Source of the DNA: an uncultured Spirochaetota bacterium
Lineage (GTDB): Bacteria > Spirochaetota > Spirochaetia > Treponematales > UBA12059
Assembly (NCBI GenBank): GCA_937873275.1
Contig: CALMRC010000084.1
Location: 1-54,692, forward strand
Length of the DNA: 54,692 bases
Direction: 5' to 3'
Shown here: positions 34,517-47,388 of the stretch, piece by piece
Numbering within the stretch: the first letter of the stretch is position 1
How the letters are laid out: each line of letters begins with the position of its first letter
Position numbers and translations under genes: made by a program
Notes under the pieces: model-generated
What the model was told of the DNA's origin: nothing
The model's input: only the letters and a program-made list of their open reading frames with translations
Database searches by the model: none

Positions 34517-34710
34517 TCCTCGTTCTTGAACGCCCCGATCTGCCGCCGGTAGGCGACGATCCGGCTAAGAACCTCGGGCACGCCTTCCAGGACTACGACG
34601 CGCTTTCCGGACAGCATGATCAACGTGGTGTCCGGATTCCTCTCAATATATTCGATCTGGTGGGGATTTATCCAGAAGGTCTTGCCGGACAGCTGGGTGA
34701 GTTCGATCAT
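34513..34710 (-). CDS. flbD: FlbD family flagellar protein
   Basis: MIELTQLSGKTFWINPHQIEYIERNPDTTLIMLSGKRVVVLE. Confidence 0.92.
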   Translation of the reverse strand: MIELTQLSGKTFWINPHQIEYIERNPDTTLIMLSGKRVVVLEGVPEVLSRIVAYRRQIGAFKNEE

Positions 34711-34712
34711 GG

Positions 34713-34840
34713 CGTGGACAGCGGACGGTTGACGGTGGACGGAAATGGCCGCGGAGCGCGGCAAACGACTACGCTTCGGCGTAGGAAGCTGCCGCGGCCT
34801 TGGATCACTTCCGTTTACCGTTCACCGTCCACCGTTTACC
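34713..34840. repeat. Heptamer-TIR element, copy 1 (flgE-flbD intergenic)
   Basis: Left arm CGTGGAC-AGCGGAC-GGTTGAC-GGTGGAC-GGAA; right arm (reverse complement) GGTAAAC-GGTGGAC-GGTGAAC-GGTAAAC-GGAA; core contains GGCCGCGG...CTACGC-TTCG-GCGTAG...CCGCGGCC. Confidence 0.8.
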
Positions 34841-34842
34841 TC

Positions 34843-36234
34843 CTACCTCTTCAGCGTCAGAAGCTCCTGGAGCATCTGGTCGCTGGTCTGTATGGTCTTG
34901 GAACTGGCTTGGAAGCCTCTCTGGGTCACGATCATGTCCGTGAACTGCTCGGCCAGGTCCACGTTCGACATTTCCAGGGTGCCCGCGATGATCTTGCCCT
35001 TCCCGGCGATCCCGGAGGGGCCGATGTCCGCGAGCCCGGAGTTGTTGGACTGCACGAAATTGGTCTCCCCGGATTTCTCCAGCCCCCCGGGATTCGTGAA
35101 GCTGGCGAGGGCCATCTGTCCGATCGTGCGGTTCGATCCGTTGGAATAGACCGCCGTTATGATCCCGGACTGGTCGATCTTGAAGCTCTCCAGGTACCCC
35201 ATGGAGTACCCGTCCTGCTGGAAGACCTTGGTGCTCGAGGTTTCCGCGAATTGGGTCACCGAACTCCGCACGCTCCCCGCGGTCCCGAGGTTCAGGGCGA
35301 AGGTCTGGCGGACGGGGCCCGCCCCCGCTTCCGCCGCGGCGCCCTGGACGTCGAAGGCCACGTTCACCGCGAGGGCTCCCTCTTCGGGGCTCTGGTTGCC
35401 CTGGGCGTCCGCCACCCTGCGGAGGGTCCCCAGGTTGGTGAACTCCACGACGAAGTTGTTCGTGCCCTCCGGAGCGGCTCCGAGGGAGACGGCGGTGTTG
35501 GTGGCCGCCTCCGCCTCGGGGTCCACGGTGACCGCGGCGTTCCACTGGTTCGGCTGGCCGGGGACCCGGGTGAACTCGATGCGGAGAATGTGCTCGATTC
35601 CGAAGGAGTCGTAGACCTTTTCCTCCACCCTCCAGGTTCCCCGAAGGATCGTCTCCTCCGTGGCGCCTTCCGGGATCTCGGGCACGCGCTTGTCCAGGTT
35701 GCAGGCCAGGTAGACCTGCTCGGTGGCCTTGGCGGGATCCTTCGATCCGACGGGGATGACCAGGTCCTCCAGGGCGCCGGAGGTGTTCAGGATCTCCCGG
35801 CCGTTCACGACCTGGGCGTTCCAGCCCTGGACGCGGTATCCGTTGGCGGGATTCACCAGGCGTCCGTCCCGGTCCAGGCCGAAGGCCCCGGCCCGGGTGA
35901 AGAAGCGGGAATCCCCTTTTTGAAGCACGAAGAACCCGTTGCCCTGGATGGCCACGTCCGTCATCACCCCCGTGGTCTGCAAGGATCCCTGGGTGTGGAT
36001 CGTGTCCACCGACGCGATGGACATCCCCAGGCCGATCTCCTTGGGGTTGACGCCGCCGACCTCCTCGTTCGGGCGCGCGGCGCCGGACATCTGCTGGTAC
36101 AGGAGGTCCTGGAAATTCACCCGGTTCTTCTTGTATCCCGTGGTGTTCACGTTGGCTATGTTGTGTCCGAGCACGTCCATCCGGACCTGATGGTTCTGCA
36201 GGCCCGAGACGCCGGAATACAGGGATCGCATCAT
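34843..36234 (-). CDS. flgE: Flagellar hook protein FlgE
   Basis: [48 protein letters not shown]-terminal [40 protein letters not shown]. Confidence 0.96.
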
Positions 36235-36246
36235 GGAGAGGCCTCC

Positions 36247-36696
36247 TTACTCGATGACCTTCTCGACCTGCCCGAGGTCGTAGAAGGTTCCGTTCACCAT
36301 TACCATGGGGAAATCCCCCCGCACCACCTGGGTGACCGTCCCGGTCACCTTCGCGGAGCCGTCCAGGATCTCCACGTTCCGTCCCAGCATGCCCTGTGCC
36401 TCCCCGACGCGGAGCACCGAGGCGACCTTGGCGAATTCCCGACCCATGTTCGTCATCTGTTCCAGGGAGGAGAACTGGGCCATCTGGGCGATGAACTCCT
36501 TGTCCTCCATGGGTTTGGTCGGATCCTGGTTCTGCAGCTGGGTGATCAGGATCTTCAGGAAGTCATCCTTGTCCAGGGCGGGCTTGAAGGCCTTTCCGCC
36601 GTTCAGGGATTTGTTGAAGGCGTCCACGTCGAACTGGGTCTTGGTCAGTTCGGTGGGGTTCATCATCGCGGAAAAATCCATCCTATCGGCCTCCAT
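36247..36696 (-). CDS. flgD: Flagellar hook capping protein FlgD
   Basis: DDFLKILITQLQNQDPTKPMEDKEFIAQMAQFSSLEQM. Confidence 0.95.
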   Translation of the reverse strand: MEADRMDFSAMMNPTELTKTQFDVDAFNKSLNGGKAFKPALDKDDFLKILITQLQNQDPTKPMEDKEFIAQMAQFSSLEQMTNMGREFAKVASVLRVGEAQGMLGRNVEILDGSAKVTGTVTQVVRGDFPMVMVNGTFYDLGQVEKVIE

Positions 36697-36750
36697 ACGC
36701 CGCGTCCCGTGCGGCTTGCCGGACCGTCGGTCCGTTCCCCCGCCGGGCGT

Positions 36751-38037
36751 TCATGCCCATAGATTCACCGTTCCGTCCCGGGCGTACCCGGTGTCCGCCG
36801 CGGCCGGCTGGGACCTCTCGAGGCCCCGCAGACGCTCCGTGAAGAAGGGCTCCTCGGGAGTTCCCGAAGGATCCTCCCCGCCCTCCGCCTGGCCTCCCCC
36901 GACGGAGACCTCCAGGCTCGCGGTCTCGAACCCGCCCTCCGTGAAGGCGTCCCTCAGTCCGGACAGGCTCTTCTCGAAGGCGCTCCGAGCCTCGTCCGTC
37001 TCCACGACGATCCGGCCCGTGATATTCTTTTCGGACATTTTGAGCTCTATCTTGACGCTTCCCAGGGATTCCGGCTCCAGGCGTAGCCGGATCACCCCCG
37101 TATCCCCGTCCCGCAGGACGATCTGGGCGGCCTTGACGATGTCCTGGGCACCCGGGTCCGCAAGGTGCCGGGCCAGGATGTCCGAGAATCCCGTCCCCGT
37201 AGCGGGCTTTGGGCTGGAGGTACGTTCGGAGGGAGCCGGGCCCTCGGCGGTCCTCGTCCCGTTGGTGTGGAGGTCCTTCAACCCCGGGGCGGCGTCGTCC
37301 GCTCGCCCCGTCTCCCGTCCCGGTTCGGCCTCGGGATTCGCGGGCCGCATCCGGAGGTCCACGACGGAAACCTTGGCGTCCTTGCGCTCCGATCGGCGCC
37401 GGACCGTACCCGGGCTCTCCGCGGAGGTTTCCTCCGGGGGCGATGGCGGATCGGTCCGGCGGACCGATGGACCCGGGCCGGGGTTCACGGCCGCCGTGGA
37501 AGCCGCGGCCCCTTCATCCGCGAGACGAGCCGAAGCCTTCCGATCCCGGGCGGGGGCCCGCGATTCCGCGCCGTCCTTCACCGCGTCGGCCCGGACCGCA
37601 CCACGGGGGCCGGAGATGGTCCCGTGGTTCGATCCGGCGGCGGCGAGGCCGCCGTCGGGCATCCTTCCGGTCGCCGCGGGTTCCGCGGGGATCGGATCCC
37701 CCGCGCGCCGGACGCTCCGGGACGCGGGATCGCGGGGAGGTTCCGGATCCCGGGAATTCGAGGTAGTCTTCCGGGTCGCCCCGTCCGCTTCCGCGCGGAG
37801 CGGCCGCCGCCGGTTCAGGGCCCGACCGGATTCAGGGTCCTGCGGACGAATCGCCGGTTTTCCCGGGTCGGACGCGCCTTCCCGCTTCGCCAGGTCCCGG
37901 ACGCTCCGGTTCAGGAGGGCCCGGAACGAGGCGCCGCTTCCGGATTCGGATTCCGCCCGCGGGCTTGCCGGGGCGCCGGGACGATCCGACGACGAAGGAG
38001 GTACGGAGGGCTGGATATTGACAGAGGCTGCCTGCAT
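36751..38037 (-). CDS. fliK: Flagellar hook-length control protein FliK
   Basis: Low-complexity N-terminus; C-terminal GVIRLRLEPESLGSVKIELKMSEKNITGRIVVETDEARSAFEKSLSGLRDAF. Confidence 0.88.
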   Translation of the reverse strand: MQAASVNIQPSVPPSSSDRPGAPASPRAESESGSGASFRALLNRSVRDLAKREGASDPGKPAIRPQDPESGRALNRRRPLRAEADGATRKTTSNSRDPEPPRDPASRSVRRAGDPIPAEPAATGRMPDGGLAAAGSNHGTISGPRGAVRADAVKDGAESRAPARDRKASARLADEGAAASTAAVNPGPGPSVRRTDPPSPPEETSAESPGTVRRRSERKDAKVSVVDLRMRPANPEAEPGRETGRADDAAPGLKDLHTNGTRTAEGPAPSERTSSPKPATGTGFSDILARHLADPGAQDIVKAAQIVLRDGDTGVIRLRLEPESLGSVKIELKMSEKNITGRIVVETDEARSAFEKSLSGLRDAFTEGGFETASLEVSVGGGQAEGGEDPSGTPEEPFFTERLRGLERSQPAAADTGYARDGTVNLWA

Positions 38038-38094
38038 AGGCGCGGCGCTCTCCTTTCGTTCCGTCGACCGGAACGGGGCGCCGCGCGGGGGTGG

Positions 38095-38727
38095 CTAGTC
38101 GAGCGGCTCGGGCTTCGACGCCATCTTCCGTTGGATCGCGGCGGATCGGGGGGCCTTCATCAGGGACAGCCAGTAGGCCACCACCGAATCCTGCCCCGCC
38201 TCCTGGGCCTGCCGTTCGACGGCCCGCAGGATGTCGATCACCATCTGGTCGTCCATGGACTCCAGGATGGCGACGGCGTTCGCGGGCGGCATCCCCGACA
38301 GGTACCGGGCGTTCTGGTCGACGTTCGCCTTTCTATTCTCGATAGACTCGACGGTTTGGTTGAACGATTTTTCTCGGTCTTCCAGAGCTTTCCGCTGTTC
38401 CTCGAGTTCCTGGGCGATCCGGGAGATCTCCGCCTCCCGCTCGTCCAGGGATCCTGACCGGGCGTCCAGCTCCTCCCGCACGGCGTCCAGGGCCTCGTAG
38501 AGCTTGGAAGCCCGCTCGTCCTCCAGGAGGGTCAGGGAATCCGGGGGCAGGGCGCCGGCCTGCCGGGCGGGCAGGCCGATCAGCCGGTAGGCGGGCGCGA
38601 AGAAGTCCTTCAGGTCCAGGAGCCCGAGATAATCGAACCAGACGAGCCCACCCAGGATCAAGGCCAGGATGATCGCCAACATCACGAGTATTCTTCCCAG
38701 GACGCGGGGTTTCCCGAAAGCAGGCAT
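38095..38727 (-). CDS. flbB: FlbB-like spirochaetal flagellar protein (MgtE-N-like C-terminus)
   Basis: N-terminal TM, coiled coil, YLSGMPPANAVAILESMDDQMVIDILRAVERQA; between fliK and fliJ. Confidence 0.8.
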   Translation of the reverse strand: MPAFGKPRVLGRILVMLAIILALILGGLVWFDYLGLLDLKDFFAPAYRLIGLPARQAGALPPDSLTLLEDERASKLYEALDAVREELDARSGSLDEREAEISRIAQELEEQRKALEDREKSFNQTVESIENRKANVDQNARYLSGMPPANAVAILESMDDQMVIDILRAVERQAQEAGQDSVVAYWLSLMKAPRSAAIQRKMASKPEPLD

Positions 38728-38744
38728 CGCGCTACCTCTACACC

Positions 38745-39185
38745 TTACTCATCTCGGCCTATATTCTTGCCGGTCCGGGAAAGATCGTCCAGGGTCTTGA
38801 TCTCCTCCCGCGTGGCGCTGCGATAGTACTCCGCCTCGCCGCGTTCCCGCAACTTGGTCAGCAGTTCCTTGTCCTTGCTGGCCGCCACGTACCCCTGGCG
38901 GGCCTTCTCCCGATCCGCCTCCGCGAGGGCCAAGGCACGGAGGGTCCGCTCCCGCTCGACCGACAGGCGCCGGGAGTAGAGCTCCGCTGTCCGCATTTCG
39001 AGCAGGTCCCGGCCGCCGGAAAACCGCTGGCGCGCGGCGTCCAAGGTCGCCCGGGCGTTGTCCTCCAGGATCCGTTCCAGGAGGGAGCATTTTCCCGCCG
39101 CCGCGGTCAGCTTCATCTCCGCGATCCGCTCGTAGTACTCCCGGACCTCCAACACCTTCTCCAGGCGGAACCGGAACTTCCTCAT
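38745..39185 (-). CDS. fliJ: Flagellar protein FliJ
   Basis: MRKFRFRLEKVLEVREYYERIAEMKL; coiled coil; adjacent to fliI. Confidence 0.88.
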   Translation of the reverse strand: MRKFRFRLEKVLEVREYYERIAEMKLTAAAGKCSLLERILEDNARATLDAARQRFSGGRDLLEMRTAELYSRRLSVERERTLRALALAEADREKARQGYVAASKDKELLTKLRERGEAEYYRSATREEIKTLDDLSRTGKNIGRDE

Positions 39186-40636
39186 TCCGCCGCCCCGCCG
39201 TCCGCGGACGGGGACGGCGCCGGCGCGGCCTTGGTTACCCCGGGAGCGCCAAGAGCCGGAGCCGTCCCGGACGGGCCGGCCGGTGAGGCGGTGTCGGCGT
39301 ACTGGGATATCTCCGAGGCGGGGATCGCGACGCCCGCGATCTCCCCGAGCTTCCGCAGGGTATCCGTGATGGGGGCCTTCTCCGTGATCCCCTGCATCAG
39401 GAAGGCCTGGATGGGCTCGTGCTTGCCGATCGCCTCGTCGATGGCGGGATTGGTCCCCTTGACGTAGGCGCCGATGTTGATCATGTCCTCCGATTCCTCG
39501 TAGGTGGCCATGAGGCGGCGCACCACCCCCATGGCCTTCTGGGTCACGGGGCCGGTCACCGCGTTGGAGAGGCGGGAGATGGACTTGAGGACCCCCACGG
39601 CGGGATACTGGTACCTCTCCGCAAGCCGACGCTCCAGGACGATATGGCCGTCCAGGATGCCCCGGACCGTGTCGGAAATCGGTTCGTCCATGTCGTCGCC
39701 GTCCACCAGGATCGTGTAGATGCCGGTGATCGTGCCCGTATCGGACGCACCGGAGCGCTCCAGGAGACGGGGAAGGGAATCGAAGACGCTGGGGGTGTAT
39801 CCCCGGGTCGTGGGCGGCTCCCCGACGGCCAGACCGATCTCCCGCTGGGCTCGGGCGAAGCGGGTGACCGAGTCGAAGAGGAGCATGACGTCCAGGCCCA
39901 GGTCCCGGAAGTATTCCGCCACCGCGGTCGCCACGTAGGCTCCCCGGAGCCGGGCCAGGGGCGGGGTGTCCCCGGTGGAGACGATCACCACGGACCGGGC
40001 CAGCCCCTCCTCCCCGAGGTCGTTCTCGATGAACTCCCGGACTTCCCGCCCGCGCTCTCCGATCAGGGCGATCACGTTCACGTCGGCGTTGGTGTTCCGG
40101 GCGACCATCCCCAGCAGAGTGGACTTTCCGACCCCGGAGCCCGCGAAGATACCGATGCGCTGTCCCTTTCCCAGGGGCAGAAGCCCGTCCACGGATCGAA
40201 CCCCGGTCACGATGCGCCGGGAAATCCGCTTCCGGGTCAGGGGATCCGGGGGCTGGGCGACCGCGGGGTAGGAGCGGTCGGAGACGATGTCGCCCTTCCC
40301 GTCCGCGGGCCGCCCCATCGAGTCGAGGACCCGGCCCAGGAGCTTCTTCGAGACCGGCACGGACAGAAGGTCCCCCGTGGCGATAACGGAGCAGCCCGCC
40401 TCGATTCCGTCCAGGTTCGAGTAGGACATGAGCTGGACCGCCTCGTTCCGCAGGCCCACCACCTCCGCGTACGCGGACCGGTCGGTCTTGGGGATGAGGA
40501 TCTTGCAGACTTCTCCGATCACGGCCCGGGGGCCGTGGGACTCCACCAGAAGTCCCTGGACCCGGGTCACCCGGCCCGTGTACTTGATGGGATCCGTTCG
40601 GTCGATGACGGACAGGTACTTCGACAGGTTTTCCAT
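39182..40636 (-). CDS. fliI: Flagellum-specific ATP synthase FliI
   Basis: GIFAGSGVGKSTLLGMVARNTNADVNVIALIGERGREVREFIE; start at ATG 40636 within longer ORF. Confidence 0.96.
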   Translation of the reverse strand: MENLSKYLSVIDRTDPIKYTGRVTRVQGLLVESHGPRAVIGEVCKILIPKTDRSAYAEVVGLRNEAVQLMSYSNLDGIEAGCSVIATGDLLSVPVSKKLLGRVLDSMGRPADGKGDIVSDRSYPAVAQPPDPLTRKRISRRIVTGVRSVDGLLPLGKGQRIGIFAGSGVGKSTLLGMVARNTNADVNVIALIGERGREVREFIENDLGEEGLARSVVIVSTGDTPPLARLRGAYVATAVAEYFRDLGLDVMLLFDSVTRFARAQREIGLAVGEPPTTRGYTPSVFDSLPRLLERSGASDTGTITGIYTILVDGDDMDEPISDTVRGILDGHIVLERRLAERYQYPAVGVLKSISRLSNAVTGPVTQKAMGVVRRLMATYEESEDMINIGAYVKGTNPAIDEAIGKHEPIQAFLMQGITEKAPITDTLRKLGEIAGVAIPASEISQYADTASPAGPSGTAPALGAPGVTKAAPAPSPSADGGAAE

Positions 40637-40646
40637 TCTCCCGGTC

Positions 40647-41573
40647 CTAGGCCGTCGGCTTTCCGCGGGCCTTGATGGGGGAGATGTCCAGGATCTTCTC
40701 CTCCAGCTCGTGAAGCTGGCTGGAGATGCGCGCGTCGATCTCCCCGAAGTCCGTCTCGATGATGCAGCCGCCCCGGTCGATGGTGGTGTCCTCGACGATC
40801 TGTATGTGCTTGGCGTTCTCCGCCATGGCGACGAAATCCTTCGTGTGCTCCGAGGCCAGCTGGAGGTCCGCAAGGTTCACCCGGATCGTCACCTCGCTCC
40901 GGGTCCGGAGCTTACGGAGGGCCTGGACGATGTTCTGGATGACAACGTTCTTCTGGTTCTCCGAGATAACCTTCACGACCTTCTTGGCCACCAGGAGGAC
41001 GAGCTCCACGATCTCGGCCTCGGTCTTCTCCAGGATCTCCCCGCGCTTGTCTAAGGCCCGCTCTATGATCGCGTGCAGGCGGCCGGTCAGACGTTCCACC
41101 TCCGCCTTGCCTTCCTTGTACCCGTCCTCGCGCCCCTCGTCGAACCCCTTGCGGAACGCGTCCTTGTGGACGTTGTCGATGCGCTCCTTGGCCTGGGCTT
41201 CCAGCTCCCGGATCCGGGCCTCCGCCGCCTCGACGGCCGCGGTGGCCTCCTCCTCGGCCTTGGTCTTGATCTTCTGGGCCTGGTCCGTGCGCCGCTTGAC
41301 CTCGTCGAAGGCGGCGGCCTCGGCCTTCTGGATGATCGCGTCCGCCTCCGCCCGGGCGGAGGCGATCATGGTCTCCCGCTCCTTGTCCCAGTTGGCCTTG
41401 AAGGCCTCCGCCTCCCGGCGCAGGTCGTCGGCGGTGGGACCCAGGTATTCCTCCAGGGGCAGGGCCTCCTCCACCCCCGCGGCGGACTGGGCGGACCCGG
41501 AATCCGGGCCGTCCAGCACGTACTTGGAGGTGAGGGGGACGATCTCCTGGGGCCGGAAGACGGTTTTCGCCAT
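40647..41573 (-). CDS. fliH: Flagellar assembly protein FliH
   Basis: Charged coiled coil; C-terminal VIRVNLADLQLASEHTKDFV...IVEDTTIDRGGCIIETDFGEIDARISSQL. Confidence 0.92.
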   Translation of the reverse strand: MAKTVFRPQEIVPLTSKYVLDGPDSGSAQSAAGVEEALPLEEYLGPTADDLRREAEAFKANWDKERETMIASARAEADAIIQKAEAAAFDEVKRRTDQAQKIKTKAEEEATAAVEAAEARIRELEAQAKERIDNVHKDAFRKGFDEGREDGYKEGKAEVERLTGRLHAIIERALDKRGEILEKTEAEIVELVLLVAKKVVKVISENQKNVVIQNIVQALRKLRTRSEVTIRVNLADLQLASEHTKDFVAMAENAKHIQIVEDTTIDRGGCIIETDFGEIDARISSQLHELEEKILDISPIKARGKPTA

Positions 41574-41585
41574 GGTCGGACTCCC

Positions 41586-42689
41586 TTACTGCACCAGCTC
41601 GTCGCCCTCTCCCCGGGAGATGACGATGTCGCCGGTTTCCTCGAGGTGGCGGATGATGGACACGATCTTCTGCTGGGCTTCCTCCACGTCCTTGAGTCGC
41701 ACGGGGCCCATGTACTCCATGTCCTCCTTGAGCATCGTGGCCGCCCGTTTGGACATGTTCTTGAAGATCTTCTCCTGCACCTCCTGGTCCACGCCCTTGA
41801 GGGCCTTGGCCAGCTCCTGTCCGTCCACCTCTCGGAGGACCTTCTGTATGGACCGGTCGTCCAGCAGGACGATGTCCTCGAACACGAACATCTTCTTCTT
41901 GATCTCTTCGGCGAGCTCGGGATTCTCCTCCTCCAGGCTCTCGATGATGCCCTTCTCCGTGGTGCGGTCCACCAGGTTCAGGATCTCGACGATGGAGTCC
42001 ACGCCGCCGGCGGCGGTGAAGTCCTCGCTGGACAGGGTGGAGAGTTTCTTCTCCAGGACCCGCTCCACCTCCCGCAGGGTCTCCGGGCTCGTGCGGTCCA
42101 TGGTGGCGATGCGCCGGGCCACGTCGGACTGGAACTCGTGGGGGAGCTTCTGCAGGATGTACCCCGCCTTCCCGGGCTCCAGGTACGCCAGGATCAGGGC
42201 TATGGTCTGGGGATGCTCCTGCTGGATGAAGTTCAGAAGGTGCGCGGGATCCGTCCGGCGGATGAAGTCGAAGGGCCGGACCTGCAGGGAGCTGGTCAGC
42301 CGGTTGATGATGTCGATGGCCTTCTGGGACCCGAGGGCCTTCTCCAGCAGCTCCCGGGCGTAGTCGATGCCGCCGGAGGAGATGAACTCCGAGGCCATCA
42401 TGAGCTCCTGGAACTCCATGAGGACCTGGTCCTTCTGCTCGGGCTCCACCGTGTCCAGCCGGGCGATCTCGAAGGTCAGGGTCTCGATCTCGTCCTCCCG
42501 GAGGTGCTTGAAGATTTCCGCGGAGATCTCGCTGCCCAGGGTCACCAGGAAGATGGCGGCCTTCTGCCGGCCGTTCATGTCCTTGACCTTCATCGCCTTC
42601 TTGGTCGGGGCGGGGGCGGCACCGGCGGCGGCGCCGGCCTGTCCTCCCCTGCCCCGCTGGGGGGTCTGCGCTTGGGCTTGAGCGGCCAT
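41586..42689 (-). CDS. fliG: Flagellar motor switch protein FliG
   Basis: EHPQTIALILAYLEPGKAGYILQKLPHEFQSDVARRIATMDRTSPE. Confidence 0.96.
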   Translation of the reverse strand: MAAQAQAQTPQRGRGGQAGAAAGAAPAPTKKAMKVKDMNGRQKAAIFLVTLGSEISAEIFKHLREDEIETLTFEIARLDTVEPEQKDQVLMEFQELMMASEFISSGGIDYARELLEKALGSQKAIDIINRLTSSLQVRPFDFIRRTDPAHLLNFIQQEHPQTIALILAYLEPGKAGYILQKLPHEFQSDVARRIATMDRTSPETLREVERVLEKKLSTLSSEDFTAAGGVDSIVEILNLVDRTTEKGIIESLEEENPELAEEIKKKMFVFEDIVLLDDRSIQKVLREVDGQELAKALKGVDQEVQEKIFKNMSKRAATMLKEDMEYMGPVRLKDVEEAQQKIVSIIRHLEETGDIVISRGEGDELVQ

Positions 42690-42692
42690 GGC

Positions 42693-44399
42693 CTATTCCT
42701 CCCTCAGCCAGGTCCGGATGAGCTGGGCCACGTCCTCGGGGTGCTCCTTGGCCATGTTGATCGCGTGCTCCTGGAGCTCCAGGCGCTTGCGTTCCTCCAC
42801 GGACATGGACACTTCGATGCTCTGCTCCTCCGCCTGCCGTATCGCGTTTTCCCGGAGCATCTGGGCCTCCAGGGCGCGCTTTTCCTCCGCCAGTCTCCGG
42901 CGTCGTTCGAGTTCCCGGGAGATCAGGCGGAACACGATGAAGGATACCATGAGAACGGCCAGTCCGATGAGGCTAAATAGGATAATCTGGCTGACCTGCT
43001 GCCGCCGCAGGAATTCCTCGTCCTCCGCCCGGAACTGGGCCGTGCGGTCGAACCGGATGTTCTGGACCGTGACGGAATCCCCCCGGGCCCGGTCGTAGCC
43101 GATGGCGTTCTGGATCAGGGCTTCCGCGGCCTTCAGGTCCGCCGGGGGAATCGCCTCGTATGCCCGCTCGATGCCCCCGTCGGGCTTCAGGACCGGACGG
43201 CCCTTGTCGTCGATCTTCCGGGTCCATACCCCGTCGATGTTCACGGAAACCGTGACCCGGTCGATGCCGGGGGACCGGTCCTCCTCGGTGTTCCGCTCGT
43301 TGATCTCCTCGTTCTTGAGGGTCTGGGTCTGGGTGGCCTTGCCCACCATGTTCTGGAGGTCCTTGTAGGCCGGGGCCGTCTGCCCCTCCGCCCCCGCGGG
43401 GCCCTCGGGATTGAACCCCGTGCCCTGGTATTCGTAGGTGGTCTTGCTTTCCGACCGGGTCACGGACTTTTCCACCAGGGAATCGTCGTAGGGGGTGGTC
43501 GGATTGTCCGGCTTGATCACGAAGGGCAGGAACTCCTTGGTCTGCACGGACTTCTTGCTCATGTCCATGTCGATCTTGATGTTCAGGTCCCGGACCCGGT
43601 CCTCCGTGTAGATCTGCTGGAGGGACCGCAGGACCGCCGCGCGGTACTGGGTCTCCAGGCGCTGGATGAGCTGCTGTTCCCGCTTGGTCCGGTCGATCCG
43701 GTCGAAGTCCGCCAGGCTCGCGAAGTCGTTGAGGATGACCCCGTTCTGGTCCGTGATGACGATGTTCTCCGGAGCCAGTCCCCCGACGGCGAACTGGATG
43801 ATCTTCTGGACTCCCTCCAGCTTCTTCCGGTTCGTCGTGATGTCGCTGCCGGGCTTGGGATAGAGGATCACGCTGGCGGTCACGGGATTCTGGTCCTGGG
43901 AGAAGAGTTCCTTTTCCGGGATCTCGATCACCACGTTGGCCTTGTCCACGTCCCCCAGGCTCTCGATGTGACGGCGCACCTCCTGGACCACGGCCCTGCG
44001 GAGGTTGACGTTCCGCTCGAAGTCCGTGACCGTGAAGCGGTCGATCGCGAAGACCGACCAGGGATCCGTCCCCTTGGGGATGAGGTCCTCCCGGAGGAGG
44101 ACCGCGTTCGCCTCGGCCCGGATCTTCTCGTCCTTGACGTACAGGACGTTCCCCTCACCGACCTCGAAGGGGATCCCCTCCTCGTCCAGGCGGTTCGTGA
44201 TGAGCCGGAGTTCGTCGTCCGTCTTGATGGGCGTGGAGATGAGCCGGACCATCGTGGGCGCGGCGGATACCCGGAACAGGAGCACGGTCCCCACGACCGC
44301 GGCCACCACGATGCCCGCCAGGATGAGTTTCTGCACCAGGGTCCACTTGGACCACAGGGCCTTGAGCTGCTCGAAGAATTTCTTCAGCCATTCGTTCAT
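42693..44399 (-). CDS. fliF: Flagellar MS-ring protein FliF
   Basis: MNEWLKKFFEQLKALWSKWTLVQKLILAGIVVAAVVGTVLLFRVSA; SD GGAGGGG before ATG 44399. Confidence 0.95.
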   Translation of the reverse strand: MNEWLKKFFEQLKALWSKWTLVQKLILAGIVVAAVVGTVLLFRVSAAPTMVRLISTPIKTDDELRLITNRLDEEGIPFEVGEGNVLYVKDEKIRAEANAVLLREDLIPKGTDPWSVFAIDRFTVTDFERNVNLRRAVVQEVRRHIESLGDVDKANVVIEIPEKELFSQDQNPVTASVILYPKPGSDITTNRKKLEGVQKIIQFAVGGLAPENIVITDQNGVILNDFASLADFDRIDRTKREQQLIQRLETQYRAAVLRSLQQIYTEDRVRDLNIKIDMDMSKKSVQTKEFLPFVIKPDNPTTPYDDSLVEKSVTRSESKTTYEYQGTGFNPEGPAGAEGQTAPAYKDLQNMVGKATQTQTLKNEEINERNTEEDRSPGIDRVTVSVNIDGVWTRKIDDKGRPVLKPDGGIERAYEAIPPADLKAAEALIQNAIGYDRARGDSVTVQNIRFDRTAQFRAEDEEFLRRQQVSQIILFSLIGLAVLMVSFIVFRLISRELERRRRLAEEKRALEAQMLRENAIRQAEEQSIEVSMSVEERKRLELQEHAINMAKEHPEDVAQLIRTWLREE

Positions 44400-44429
44400 G
44401 TTCCCCTCCCAAGTTAGATGAACGAAAAC

Positions 44430-44558
44430 GGTGATCGGTGGACGGTGGTCAGTGGACGGAAACGAGGCGACCGTGCGGGGACCGGTATCCGCAAAAGCGT
44501 TCAAGTCCTCCGGGATCCGCAGCCACTCCCGTTCACCGTTTACTGTTCACGGTTCACC
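44430..44558. repeat. Heptamer-TIR element, copy 2 (fliE-fliF intergenic)
   Basis: Left arm GGTGATC-GGTGGAC-GGTGGTC-AGTGGAC-GGAAA; right arm (reverse complement) GGTGAAC-CGTGAAC-AGTAAAC-GGTGAAC-GGGAGTG. Confidence 0.8.
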
Positions 44559-44895
44559 TCGTATTTATCAAATCCCTCCAAGCCCGGACCACCCGGTCCA
44601 GGACGCTTCGGGCTATGTTCAACGACATGTTCGCCCGGCTCATGGCCAGGGTCACGTCGTGGGCATCCACGGAATCCGGGTCCGTGAGCATCTGCTGGAC
44701 CAGGGACGTGTTCTCCGTCTGGTACGCGTTGACCCCGTCCATGGCCTTGAGCAGGGCGTCCTCGAAGGAGGGACCCTTCACGGCGGAACCTTCCCCGAGC
44801 TGGCCGGAGGAGGTGTAGTGCCGGGGGCTCGTGCGGGCCAGCCGGATGAGGTCGCCGGACGCGATGTCCACGGGCAGAAGATTGTTCACCGCCAT
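44554..44895 (-). CDS. fliE: Flagellar hook-basal body protein FliE
   Basis: C-terminal DAHDVTLAMSRANMSLNIARSVLDRVVRAWRDLINTR. Confidence 0.93.
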   Translation of the reverse strand: MAVNNLLPVDIASGDLIRLARTSPRHYTSSGQLGEGSAVKGPSFEDALLKAMDGVNAYQTENTSLVQQMLTDPDSVDAHDVTLAMSRANMSLNIARSVLDRVVRAWRDLINTR

Positions 44896-44898
44896 TCA

Positions 44899-45357
44899 CT
44901 ACCTCCCGATCTCCAGGGCCTTCAGGAACATGGACTTCGACCCGTTGATGATGGCCGAGTTGGCCTCGTACGCGCGGGAGGCGGCGATGAGGTCCACCAT
45001 CTCCGTCACGATGTTCACGTTGGAGTACTCCACGTATCCCGCCCGGGGTCCGCTCTGGATGGCGTCCGGGTGGGTCGGATCGTACACGAGCCGGGTCGGG
45101 GTGGACTGGTCCTTCTGGACCTCGGAGACCCGGACGCCCCGGCCCACTCCGTTGTCCCACTGCTTGGGGAGGAAGGGCAGGCGAAAATACGGCTGGTCCA
45201 CCCGGGGGCGCAGCACCACCCGGCTCCTCCGGAACGGCCCGCCCTCGGGGGTGCGGGTGGTGGAGGCGTTGGCGATGTTGTCCGCGATGACGTCGGAGCG
45301 GAGGCGCTCCGCGGACATCCCCGTGGCGGCTATATTGATCGAACTGAACAGTCCCAT
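44899..45357 (-). CDS. flgC: Flagellar basal-body rod protein FlgC
   Basis: MGLFSSINIAATGMSAERLRSDVIADNIANASTTRTPEGGPFRR; C-terminal NIVTEMVDLIAASRAYEANSAIINGSKSM. Confidence 0.96.
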   Translation of the reverse strand: MGLFSSINIAATGMSAERLRSDVIADNIANASTTRTPEGGPFRRSRVVLRPRVDQPYFRLPFLPKQWDNGVGRGVRVSEVQKDQSTPTRLVYDPTHPDAIQSGPRAGYVEYSNVNIVTEMVDLIAASRAYEANSAIINGSKSMFLKALEIGR

Positions 45358-45371
45358 ATTCCTTCCTTATC

Positions 45372-45800
45372 CTACCGGAGCACCAGGTTGACCTGCTGGA
45401 ACTCGAAATTCACCGCCTGGGCCATCAGGGTGTACATGAGCTGGTTCTGCAGGGATGCCATGAGCTCCTGCTCGGGATCCACGTTGTTGCCGTTGTTCTT
45501 GGAGGTGGACAGGTAATCCAGGACCCTCCGGGGCTCCACGGACCGGTAGTCCTTGGGGCGCCAGAGGGGCATGTGGCGGTCGTTCGTGACCTCCAGGTCC
45601 AGGACGGGCTTCACCTTCTCGGAGTCCAGGGCCCGCTTCAGGGCGGCCTCGAAGTTGACGTCCGACCGCTTGAAGTTGGGCACTTCCGAGTTGGCCATGT
45701 TGTCCGCGATCACGTCCCGGCGCAGGAGTGCCACGTCCATGGACCTCTGGAGAAGATCCACCGTCTTTCCGAACGCGTTACCCTCGAACATTCCGCTCAC
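45372..45800 (-). CDS. flgB: Flagellar basal-body rod protein FlgB
   Basis: LLQRSMDVALLRRDVIADNMANSEVPNFKRSDVNFEAAL. Confidence 0.95.
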   Translation of the reverse strand: MSGMFEGNAFGKTVDLLQRSMDVALLRRDVIADNMANSEVPNFKRSDVNFEAALKRALDSEKVKPVLDLEVTNDRHMPLWRPKDYRSVEPRRVLDYLSTSKNNGNNVDPEQELMASLQNQLMYTLMAQAVNFEFQQVNLVLR

Positions 45801-45850
45801 CTCGTTCCTTTTCCAGCCTCGATCCCGAAAAAACCGGAACCCTGTTTAGT

Positions 45851-45877
45851 AGATCGGCGAAAATCCTTCGGCATTGA
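45851..45877 (-). promoter_or_regulatory. Sigma-28-like promoter candidate for the flgB operon
   Basis: Minus strand TCAA-N15-GCCGATCT, overlapping a hairpin at 45862..45883. Confidence 0.45.
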
Positions 45878-45883
45878 AGGATT
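45860..45883 (-). terminator. Weak hairpin-plus-TTTT terminator candidate downstream of hslU
   Basis: Minus strand AATCCTTC-AATGCC-GAAGGATT-TT: 8-bp perfect stem then short T run. Confidence 0.45.
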
Positions 45884-45890
45884 ATCCGAC

Positions 45891-46019
45891 CTTGGACAGT
45901 GGTCTGTGGACGGTGGACGGAGGTAGCCACGGATCGCAGGCGGATTGAATGCCATCTCTGTTTCCATCCTCCGCGCCCTCCCCTCACTTCCGTCCACCGA
46001 CCACCGACCACCGTTCACA
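45891..46019. repeat. Heptamer-TIR element, copy 3 (hslU-flgB intergenic)
   Basis: Left arm CTTGGAC-AGTGGTC-TGTGGAC-GGTGGAC-GGAGG; right arm (reverse complement) TGTGAAC-GGTGGTC-GGTGGTC-GGTGGAC-GGAAGTG. Confidence 0.8.
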
Positions 46020-47388
46020 ATATATACTTCGCCAGATCCGGCTTCTCGAACACGTCCTTGAACCTCTCCTCCACGAAGGCCGGGGTGACGACCACCCGGG
46101 ATCCGGACTTCTCGGGGGCCGTGAAGGATACTTCCTCCAGGAGGCGCTCCATCACGGTCTGGAGCCTCCGGGCCCCGATGTTCTCCGCCTGGGAGTTGGC
46201 CCGGGCCGCGATCTCCGAGAGACGCTCGATGGCCTCGTCCTCGAAGACCAGCTCCACGCCCTCGGTGCCCAGGAGCTGGCGGTACTGCAACGTCAGGGCG
46301 TTCTCGGGCTCCGTCAGGATGCGGCGAAAATCCTGGGCGGAGAGGGCGTCCAGCTCCACCCGGATGGGGAAGCGGCCCTGGAGTTCGGGGATGAGGTCCT
46401 GGGGCTTGGAGACGTTGAAGGCCCCGGCGGCGATGAACAGGATGTGGGTCGTGTCCACAATACCGTACTTGGTGTTCACCTGGCTGCCTTCCACGATGGG
46501 AAGGATGTCCCTCTGCACGCCCTCCCGGGACACGTCGATGCCCCCCGCCCGGGCTCCCTCCCGGGTCGCCACCTTGTCGATCTCGTCGATGAAGACGATC
46601 CCCATCTCCTGCACCCGCTTGCGGGCCTCTTCCGCGACCTTGTCCGGGTCGATCAGCTTGTCCGTCTCCTCCGCCAGGAGGATGGCCCGGGCCTCCCGGA
46701 CGGTCACGGTCCGGCGCTTCTTCTTGGCCCCGAAGAGGCCCGAGATCGAGGAAAAAGCCTCCTCCATGCCCTCCATCTGCTTGCCCGCGAAGAGCTCCAG
46801 ACTGGGTCCCTGGGAGGACTGGACCAGGACCTCCACCTCCCGGTCCTCGAGCCGGCCCTCCCGCAGCATCGTCCGGAAACGTTCCCGGGTGTCGGCGCCC
46901 TCGCTCCGGGGATTCGCCACGGTGATCTGGGACACCCCCACGGGCTCGGAGGCGCTCTTGATCCCCGGCAGGAGGATGTCCAGGATCCGGTCCTCCACCC
47001 GGCGGTCCGCCTCGGCCCGTACGGACTCCAACATCTCGGACTTGACCATCTGGAAGCCCGCGGACATCAGGTCCCGGATCATGGACTCCACGTCCCGTCC
47101 GACGTAGCCGACCTCGGTGTACTTCGTGGCCTCCACCTTCAGGAACGGAGCCCCGCAGAGCTTGGCCAGGCGCCGGGCGATCTCGGTCTTTCCGACTCCG
47201 GTGGGTCCCATCATGAGGATGTTCTTCGGGGCGATCTCCTCCCGGATTTCCTCGGGGAGCTTGCGGCGGCGCATCCGGTTGCGGAGGGCGATGGCCACGG
47301 CCTTCTTGGCCTTCAACTGGCCCACGATGTAGCGGTCCAGTTCCTCCACGATCCGGGCCGGGGTGAGCCGGGAAAAATCGTCCGTCAC
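46015..47388 (-). CDS. hslU: HslUV ATPase subunit HslU
   Basis: [66 protein letters not shown]. Confidence 0.97.

Follow-up and report, generated by a model that had tools for sequence, protein, structure and literature searches.

What are the three elements of nearly identical length that lie between genes in a 54,692-nucleotide stretch of DNA (hereafter the window; contig CALMRC010000084.1, assembly GCA_937873275.1) from an uncultured Spirochaetota bacterium, and by what means could units that encode neither S23 nor any other gene have multiplied? The elements, numbered 1 to 3, occupy positions 34713-34840 (128 bp), 44430-44558 (129 bp) and 45891-46019 (129 bp), as located in a preliminary description made from the sequence alone, and in all three each arm consists of four in-phase heptamers, as also noted there. 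They are probably the gene-less, non-autonomous side of a selfish hairpin class that also has S23 (PF05635)-coding members of the type found as intervening sequences (IVSs) of 23S rRNA. The hallmark of this class would be a pair of inverted arms with some four to five heptamers in tandem, the sequence of which (hereafter the dialect) differs between families. S23 is a four-helix-bundle protein with a known pentamer fold, and its gene is also known from the IVSs of 23S rRNA.

A family of fixed-length intergenic elements

The window elements share one layout: a run of four heptamers and a GGAARTG box precede a core of 58-59 bp, after which box and heptamers recur in inverted order; the inner box reads GGAARTG or one of the variants GGAAACG, GGAGGTA and GGGAGTG. 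The genome of the window itself (G000; 3.6 Mb in 200 contigs, 97% complete) holds about 50 members of their family. Genome-wide, GGTGRWCGGTGRWCGG has 45 exact matches and its reversed control none, so that this abundance is not due to chance. A scoring scan for arms in the fetched regions yielded 49 non-redundant paired elements, 45 of which measure 127-131 bp (the others 80, 84, 135 and 135 bp). Across the family, GGTGGAC makes up 28% of the heptamers, followed by GGTGAAC (12%), AGTGGAC (10%), and GGTGGTC and GGTAAAC (6% each). Heptamer positions 2, 3 and 7 are near-invariant (G, T and C), while position 1 can be G, A, T or C, positions 4 and 5 G or A, and position 6 A or T.

The suggestion that these elements form a defined unit is thus borne out, as the scan did find further copies, about 50 with fixed length and inverted arms. 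Its more specific form, a non-autonomous mobile or structured intergenic unit, is supported by the same copies and by a clean empty site at locus L070, where G000 has an element and none is present in two genomes of the same genus (G001 and G002, the sister species and the outgroup, see below).

Heptamer arms around S23 genes

Three S23 genes were found in G000, and all three lie within inverted arrays of short tandem units. The unit differs from gene to gene, being GGTGGAC at L103, GTGAATx (period 7-8) at L102 and ATGAAGG-like at L104. The L103 gene is flanked on either side by full GGTGGAC elements of the window type, and an arm heptamer contains its stop codon. The GTGAAT-dialect gene of G000 (L102:1501-1815) has an internal TAA; the copy in the sister species is intact.

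S23 genes were present in 13 of 59 genomes (the relatives and G000), mostly with arrays. A wider census, for which the L109 protein served as query (the divergent L103 protein matched nothing), combined 80 named loci from several phyla with our own and related loci, 92 being usable. Period-7 arrays, defined by at least 16 matches of 21 in the flanks, were found at 76% of these 92 loci, compared with 2.5% of control windows, which were placed some 800 bp off within the loci themselves. At lags of 3-6 and 8-13 the share was at most about 5%, and at lag 14 it was 68%. The arrays are also inverted and specific to their locus: upstream flanks aligned to reverse-complemented downstream flanks with a median score of 39 (15 in both controls), and the heptamer common to both arms of a locus showed a mean distance of 0.94, compared with 3.11 between loci. 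The consensus over the surveyed loci was NNNTYAG. Heptamer arms were likewise present at all three S23 genes of cyanobacterial plasmids that were looked at.

The S23 profile matches PDB entries 2rld and 2gsc. Between the copies at L102 and L112, whose divergence is far above that of the species, pN is 0.10 and pS 0.66, which indicates that the protein is under purifying selection. The S23 of L109 (G049, same order) is 100% identical to one from Treponema berlinense, a match from which the window genome would be placed in the order Treponematales. No S23 was found in phage records.

Eleven of 80 S23 loci (L110:300-3218, L144, L148, L149, L151, L164, L167, L169, L176, L189 and L199) are nested in a longer open reading frame (ORF) that stays open in another frame through the entire S23 element; the enclosing ORFs, named by eye, include leuS and ORFs resembling PglX or type III Mod methyltransferases. 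In addition, stop triplets occur in 73% and 75% of the S23-locus heptamers on the two strands (L144-L223), against 51% and 35% after shuffling, suggesting that the arrays tend to end translation in several frames.

Persistence of sites and probable replacement of elements

Twenty sites, the three of the window and 17 further ones, were compared between G000 and the genomes G001 and G002, the aligned sites being read by eye. The flank distance between G000 and G001 is 0.085, with G002 outside at 0.108 and 0.105; on these distances, G001 is the closest relative (sister) of G000 and G002 their outgroup. The outgroup carries the same dialect as G000 at 12 of the 20 sites, whereas the sister species does so at only three, having another dialect at 15 (GTGAAT at ten, CAGGA-type units at four and a CACGGAG-type unit at one) and nothing at two. 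As the sister species has other dialects while the outgroup shares many G000 elements, the sites seem to persist and the elements to be replaced; by parsimony, G000-type elements common to G002 would be ancestral and would have been replaced in G001. Of the window elements, element 1 is present as the same element in both same-genus genomes and absent in seven genomes of other genera. In the sister species, the junctions that enclose element 2 enclose a GTGAAT-dialect element, and the place of element 3 is taken by a short GTGAAT-dialect hairpin.

At the 15 other-dialect sites, the cores of G000 and G001 are non-homologous (median local score of 12, equal to the control), and an origin of the dialect differences by rewriting of the arms on a retained core is rejected for this reason. 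Cores of G000 and G002 are homologous where comparable (93 vs 15). The earlier statement that arms are better conserved than cores must therefore be restricted, since closely related species have conserved cores as well in the elements that they share. Some of the new elements keep an old heptamer at their edge (GGTGGAC at L260, GGTAAAC at L269). Local recombination between the species and independent insertion into strong hotspots are alternatives to replacement. Such in-place replacement by a non-homologous element would be unusual among the ways in which elements turn over in bacteria.

The S23 genes at L103 and L112, in two species, differ in dialect and share their location, upstream of one regulator gene (presumably IclR-like) that both species have; exchange in place thus seems to affect S23-bearing elements too. 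Some similar sites (L267 in G001, L140 in G006) hold CACGGAG-type repeats, the period of which is about 8-9.

S23 as partner or passenger

Dispersed arrays were most numerous in genomes with a dialect-matched S23 gene for each of the three dialects tested (the counts are of hits, not elements, and overlapping hits were counted separately). GGTGRWC arrays gave 45 hits in G000 and another 42 hits in G023, two genomes that have a matching S23 (the S23 arms of G023 read GGTGAGG/GGTGAAC); elsewhere, they gave 26 hits in G002 and 11 in G001, both of the same genus as G000, one in G012 and none in the other 54 genomes. TAATKKG arrays gave 35 hits in G055 and ten in G046, both with a TAATKKG S23, followed by 7, 5 and 2 hits in three others and none in 54. 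For GTGAAT arrays, there were 152 hits in G001, whose GTGAAT-dialect S23 is intact, 38 hits in G000, where that gene has the internal stop, one in G002 and none in seven other genera.

We infer with moderate confidence that S23 binds the arrays and drives the spread of the elements. The S23 pentamer would bind the heptamer array of its own dialect, either as DNA or as a transcribed hairpin, and this binding would let elements that encode no transposase spread both in cis and in trans. Positions directly after a stop codon would be tolerated because the arms often supply the stop, and a new element could take over a site that is already occupied.

Several observations weigh against this reading. 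The dialect comparison rests on few independent genomes, and about a quarter of the S23 loci have no strong array. We know of no catalytic activity of the S23 protein, nor was a reverse transcriptase found in G000, which counts against the Avd-like route discussed below as well. Transposition was not observed, and at L070, the sole clean empty site, no target duplication of the kind that marks a MITE of a DDE transposon was seen in the comparison of G000 with G001 and G002. Finally, G001 has dispersed CAGGANN arrays (15 hits) and no S23 of matching dialect, and no S23 was found in G002 (93% complete, 550 contigs) despite its 26 GGTGRWC hits, so that S23 may be a passenger.

This last point leads to the main rival explanation, in which the hairpins would be mobile or turn over via an enzyme of the host or of another transposon, via palindrome recombination or via insertion at hotspots, with S23 merely carried along. 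Most elements indeed lack S23, the CACGGAG-type units of G001 are, like the CAGGANN ones, without an S23 of their own, and no nuclease domain was found in S23. Nevertheless, copy number tracks the S23 dialect in three dialects, and S23 genes across phyla retain heptamer arms, which a chance passenger would not do. We therefore regard the passenger explanation as a serious candidate but an unlikely one, and retain S23-linked selfish hairpins as the preferred reading.

Folding and placement

The window elements have inverted terminal repeats able to form a hairpin, and as RNA all three fold more stably than their dinucleotide shuffles, with z of about -8, -2 to -3 and -6. Across an alignment of 30 copies, in-register pairing of the arms holds in 81% of cells. 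Over the whole structure, arm covariation was absent, as 487 of 500 shuffles reached at least as many double changes. The core behaves differently: its stems (alignment positions 47-53/80-86 and 59-64/69-75) contain 29 double-changed cells compared with 18.4 in shuffles, a number that none of 500 shuffles attained, while the covariation score was matched by one of 500; the core also exceeds slid versions of itself. From this excess of double changes, the core looks like a maintained hairpin, of either DNA or RNA, as the covariation test does not separate the two. RNAalifold returned almost no consensus structure for the 30-sequence alignment because the arms pair inconsistently, and explicit pair counting was used instead.

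The two arms of an element resemble each other slightly less than arms taken from different elements do (on average 19.8 vs 20.6 of 28 positions identical, z -3.3), which perhaps reflects avoidance of perfect palindromes. An enrichment of GGTRAAC in the second arm, noted for elements 1 and 2, does extend to the whole family but is weak (rho -0.33, P 0.02, between the G counts of the two arms at heptad position 5). As for the accompanying idea that the arm differences would remain as G:U pairs in RNA, no G:U bias was found on the transcribed strand, the strand favouring G:U pairs being the other one (84 vs 92).

Genes were called with a home-made codon-usage caller trained on the flagellar operon, and their limits are approximate. 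None of the 49 elements lies inside a called gene, in agreement with the intergenic position initially proposed, and most touch the stop codon of the adjoining gene. In 44 of the 46 cases in which an element borders the 3' end of a gene, the stop codon ends no more than 26 bp inside or 2 bp beyond the edge of the element; offsets of -5, -12, -19 and -26 are frequent and correspond to a TGA or TAA within a heptamer. The sides facing gene starts mostly leave space for a ribosome site.

The covarying core, the conservation of sites under changing sequence and the occupation of gaps in apparent operons would all suit a host function, either as a structured RNA (such as a hairpin for mRNA processing) or as a binding site for a regulator (similar to the IHF/HU-like sites of Geobacter). 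However, other genera lack elements at the same operons, copies are confined to few genomes, no terminator-like site (stem and T run) overlaps an element, and an Rfam scan of the window matched no family. A host function is therefore improbable as the explanation of the family.

Relation to known repeats

In Coxiella and Leptospira, 23S IVS elements consist of an S23 gene and inverted terminal repeats forming a long hairpin and have been called selfish; in Coxiella, tandem GACAGAT heptamers, varying in number among strains, precede the S23 gene (PMC4990558). The window elements resemble them in their hairpin-forming inverted repeats and edge heptamers; excision from RNA by RNase III is a further trait of the IVS elements. 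In contrast, IVSs are single and located within 23S rRNA, whereas the window family is free-standing, multi-copy and mostly gene-less; all its elements lie between protein genes and none in 23S rRNA helix 9, 25 or 45. Moreover, S23 has been judged expendable in Coxiella (PMC4990558), whereas the S23 gene studied here is under purifying selection.

REPINs are also non-autonomous inverted doublets that form hairpins, lie in extragenic positions in many copies and have a partner protein encoded elsewhere in the genome (PMC3116915). The window family shares the dispersed inverted doublets between genes, no target duplication was seen, and G000 contains four Y1_Tnp genes. However, none of these four has heptamer arrays in the fetched flanks (up to 1.5 kb), so that the RAYT-like partner (TnpA_REP, a Y1 transposase) envisaged at the outset is not supported, and the arms are tandem 7-mers rather than REP palindromes; as far as tested, neither REP palindromes nor a Y1 transposase applies here. 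Movement by RAYT is therefore very improbable, and an S23 gene is likely the better candidate for a partner. Ordinary microsatellite drift, which the few copies with up to nine heptamers (L077, L069) might recall, has next to no probability given that 45 of 49 elements measure 127-131 bp with inverted arms and a covarying core, and that cores at different-dialect sites are non-homologous. An Avd-like (diversity-generating retroelement) route was rejected, as no RVT_1 match was obtained in the 97%-complete genome; S23 does match the Avd model, with a score well short of the cut-off.

Tandem heptamers have been described in other bacteria. GGGAATC in Xanthomonas and GGGGA(C/T)T in Nostoc are dispersed, intergenic and near gene ends, with 70-75 inverted GGGAATC pairs per Xanthomonas genome at conserved locations and with variable sequence; the accessible part of that report treats them as G-quadruplex repeats and describes neither an S23 link nor a fixed-length core (PMC4692102). 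Geobacter metallireducens has dozens of copies of paired opposite-strand sites, each of 3-5 tandem 7-9-mers, which differ in their variable spacing (classes 1 and 2) and were read as binding sites of a global regulator (IHF/HU) (PMC2700814). The abundant intergenic TAACTGA heptamers of Beggiatoaceae are direct repeats, only one being indirect, and S23 is not mentioned (PMC4679880). Thus, heptamer repeats in Xanthomonas, Nostoc, Calothrix, Geobacter and Beggiatoa have been reported without a shared explanation, and the origin of the 23S rRNA IVSs has been open for over 25 years (PMC4990558). A general S23-heptamer link would offer one testable hypothesis for these scattered observations, namely that the protein recognises the array. 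We tentatively propose, as a possibility that is somewhat less than even, that the S23 genes, the IVSs of 23S rRNA and many of the intergenic heptamer repeats still lacking an explanation belong to one unrecognised and widespread selfish class. Its sole protein would be a non-enzymatic four-helix-bundle pentamer recognising a family-specific array, and elements of different dialects would displace each other at shared sites without a transposase of their own. To our knowledge, no function has so far been assigned to the S23 protein. A general association between S23 and heptamers is not stated in the literature searched, from which subscription journals and preprints mostly fell outside, and this is no proof of novelty.

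The window elements and their neighbours

Element 2 lies between fliE and fliF (minus strand) and consists of a left arm on the plus strand (44430..44464), a core of 59 bp (44465..44523) and a right arm on the minus strand (44524..44558), the outer heptamer of which holds the fliE stop codon (TGA). Element 3, on the same plan (left arm 45891..45925, plus strand; core 45926..45984, 59 bp; right arm 45985..46019, minus strand), is located between an AAA-ATPase gene (46015-47388), probably hslU, and a gene labelled flgB from its position, on the minus strand; its outer right heptamer holds the stop codon of the AAA-ATPase gene.

Element 1 is placed between flgE (stop 34843-34845) and flbD (start 34709-34711), both on the minus strand. 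Its left arm (34713..34747, plus strand) comprises four heptamers and GGAAATG, its core (34748..34805, 58 bp) contains the central hairpin CTACGC-TTCG-GCGTAG, and its right arm (34806..34840, minus strand) comprises four heptamers and GGAAGTG in the minus-strand reading. Here (window positions 34700-34850), a Shine-Dalgarno-like GGAGGT adjoins the flgE stop, and the element lies between this GGAGGT and the flbD start. In several genomes of other genera, a GGAGG-type site stands immediately before the flbD start, and the hairpin of element 1 may reunite GGAGGT with the flbD start codon.

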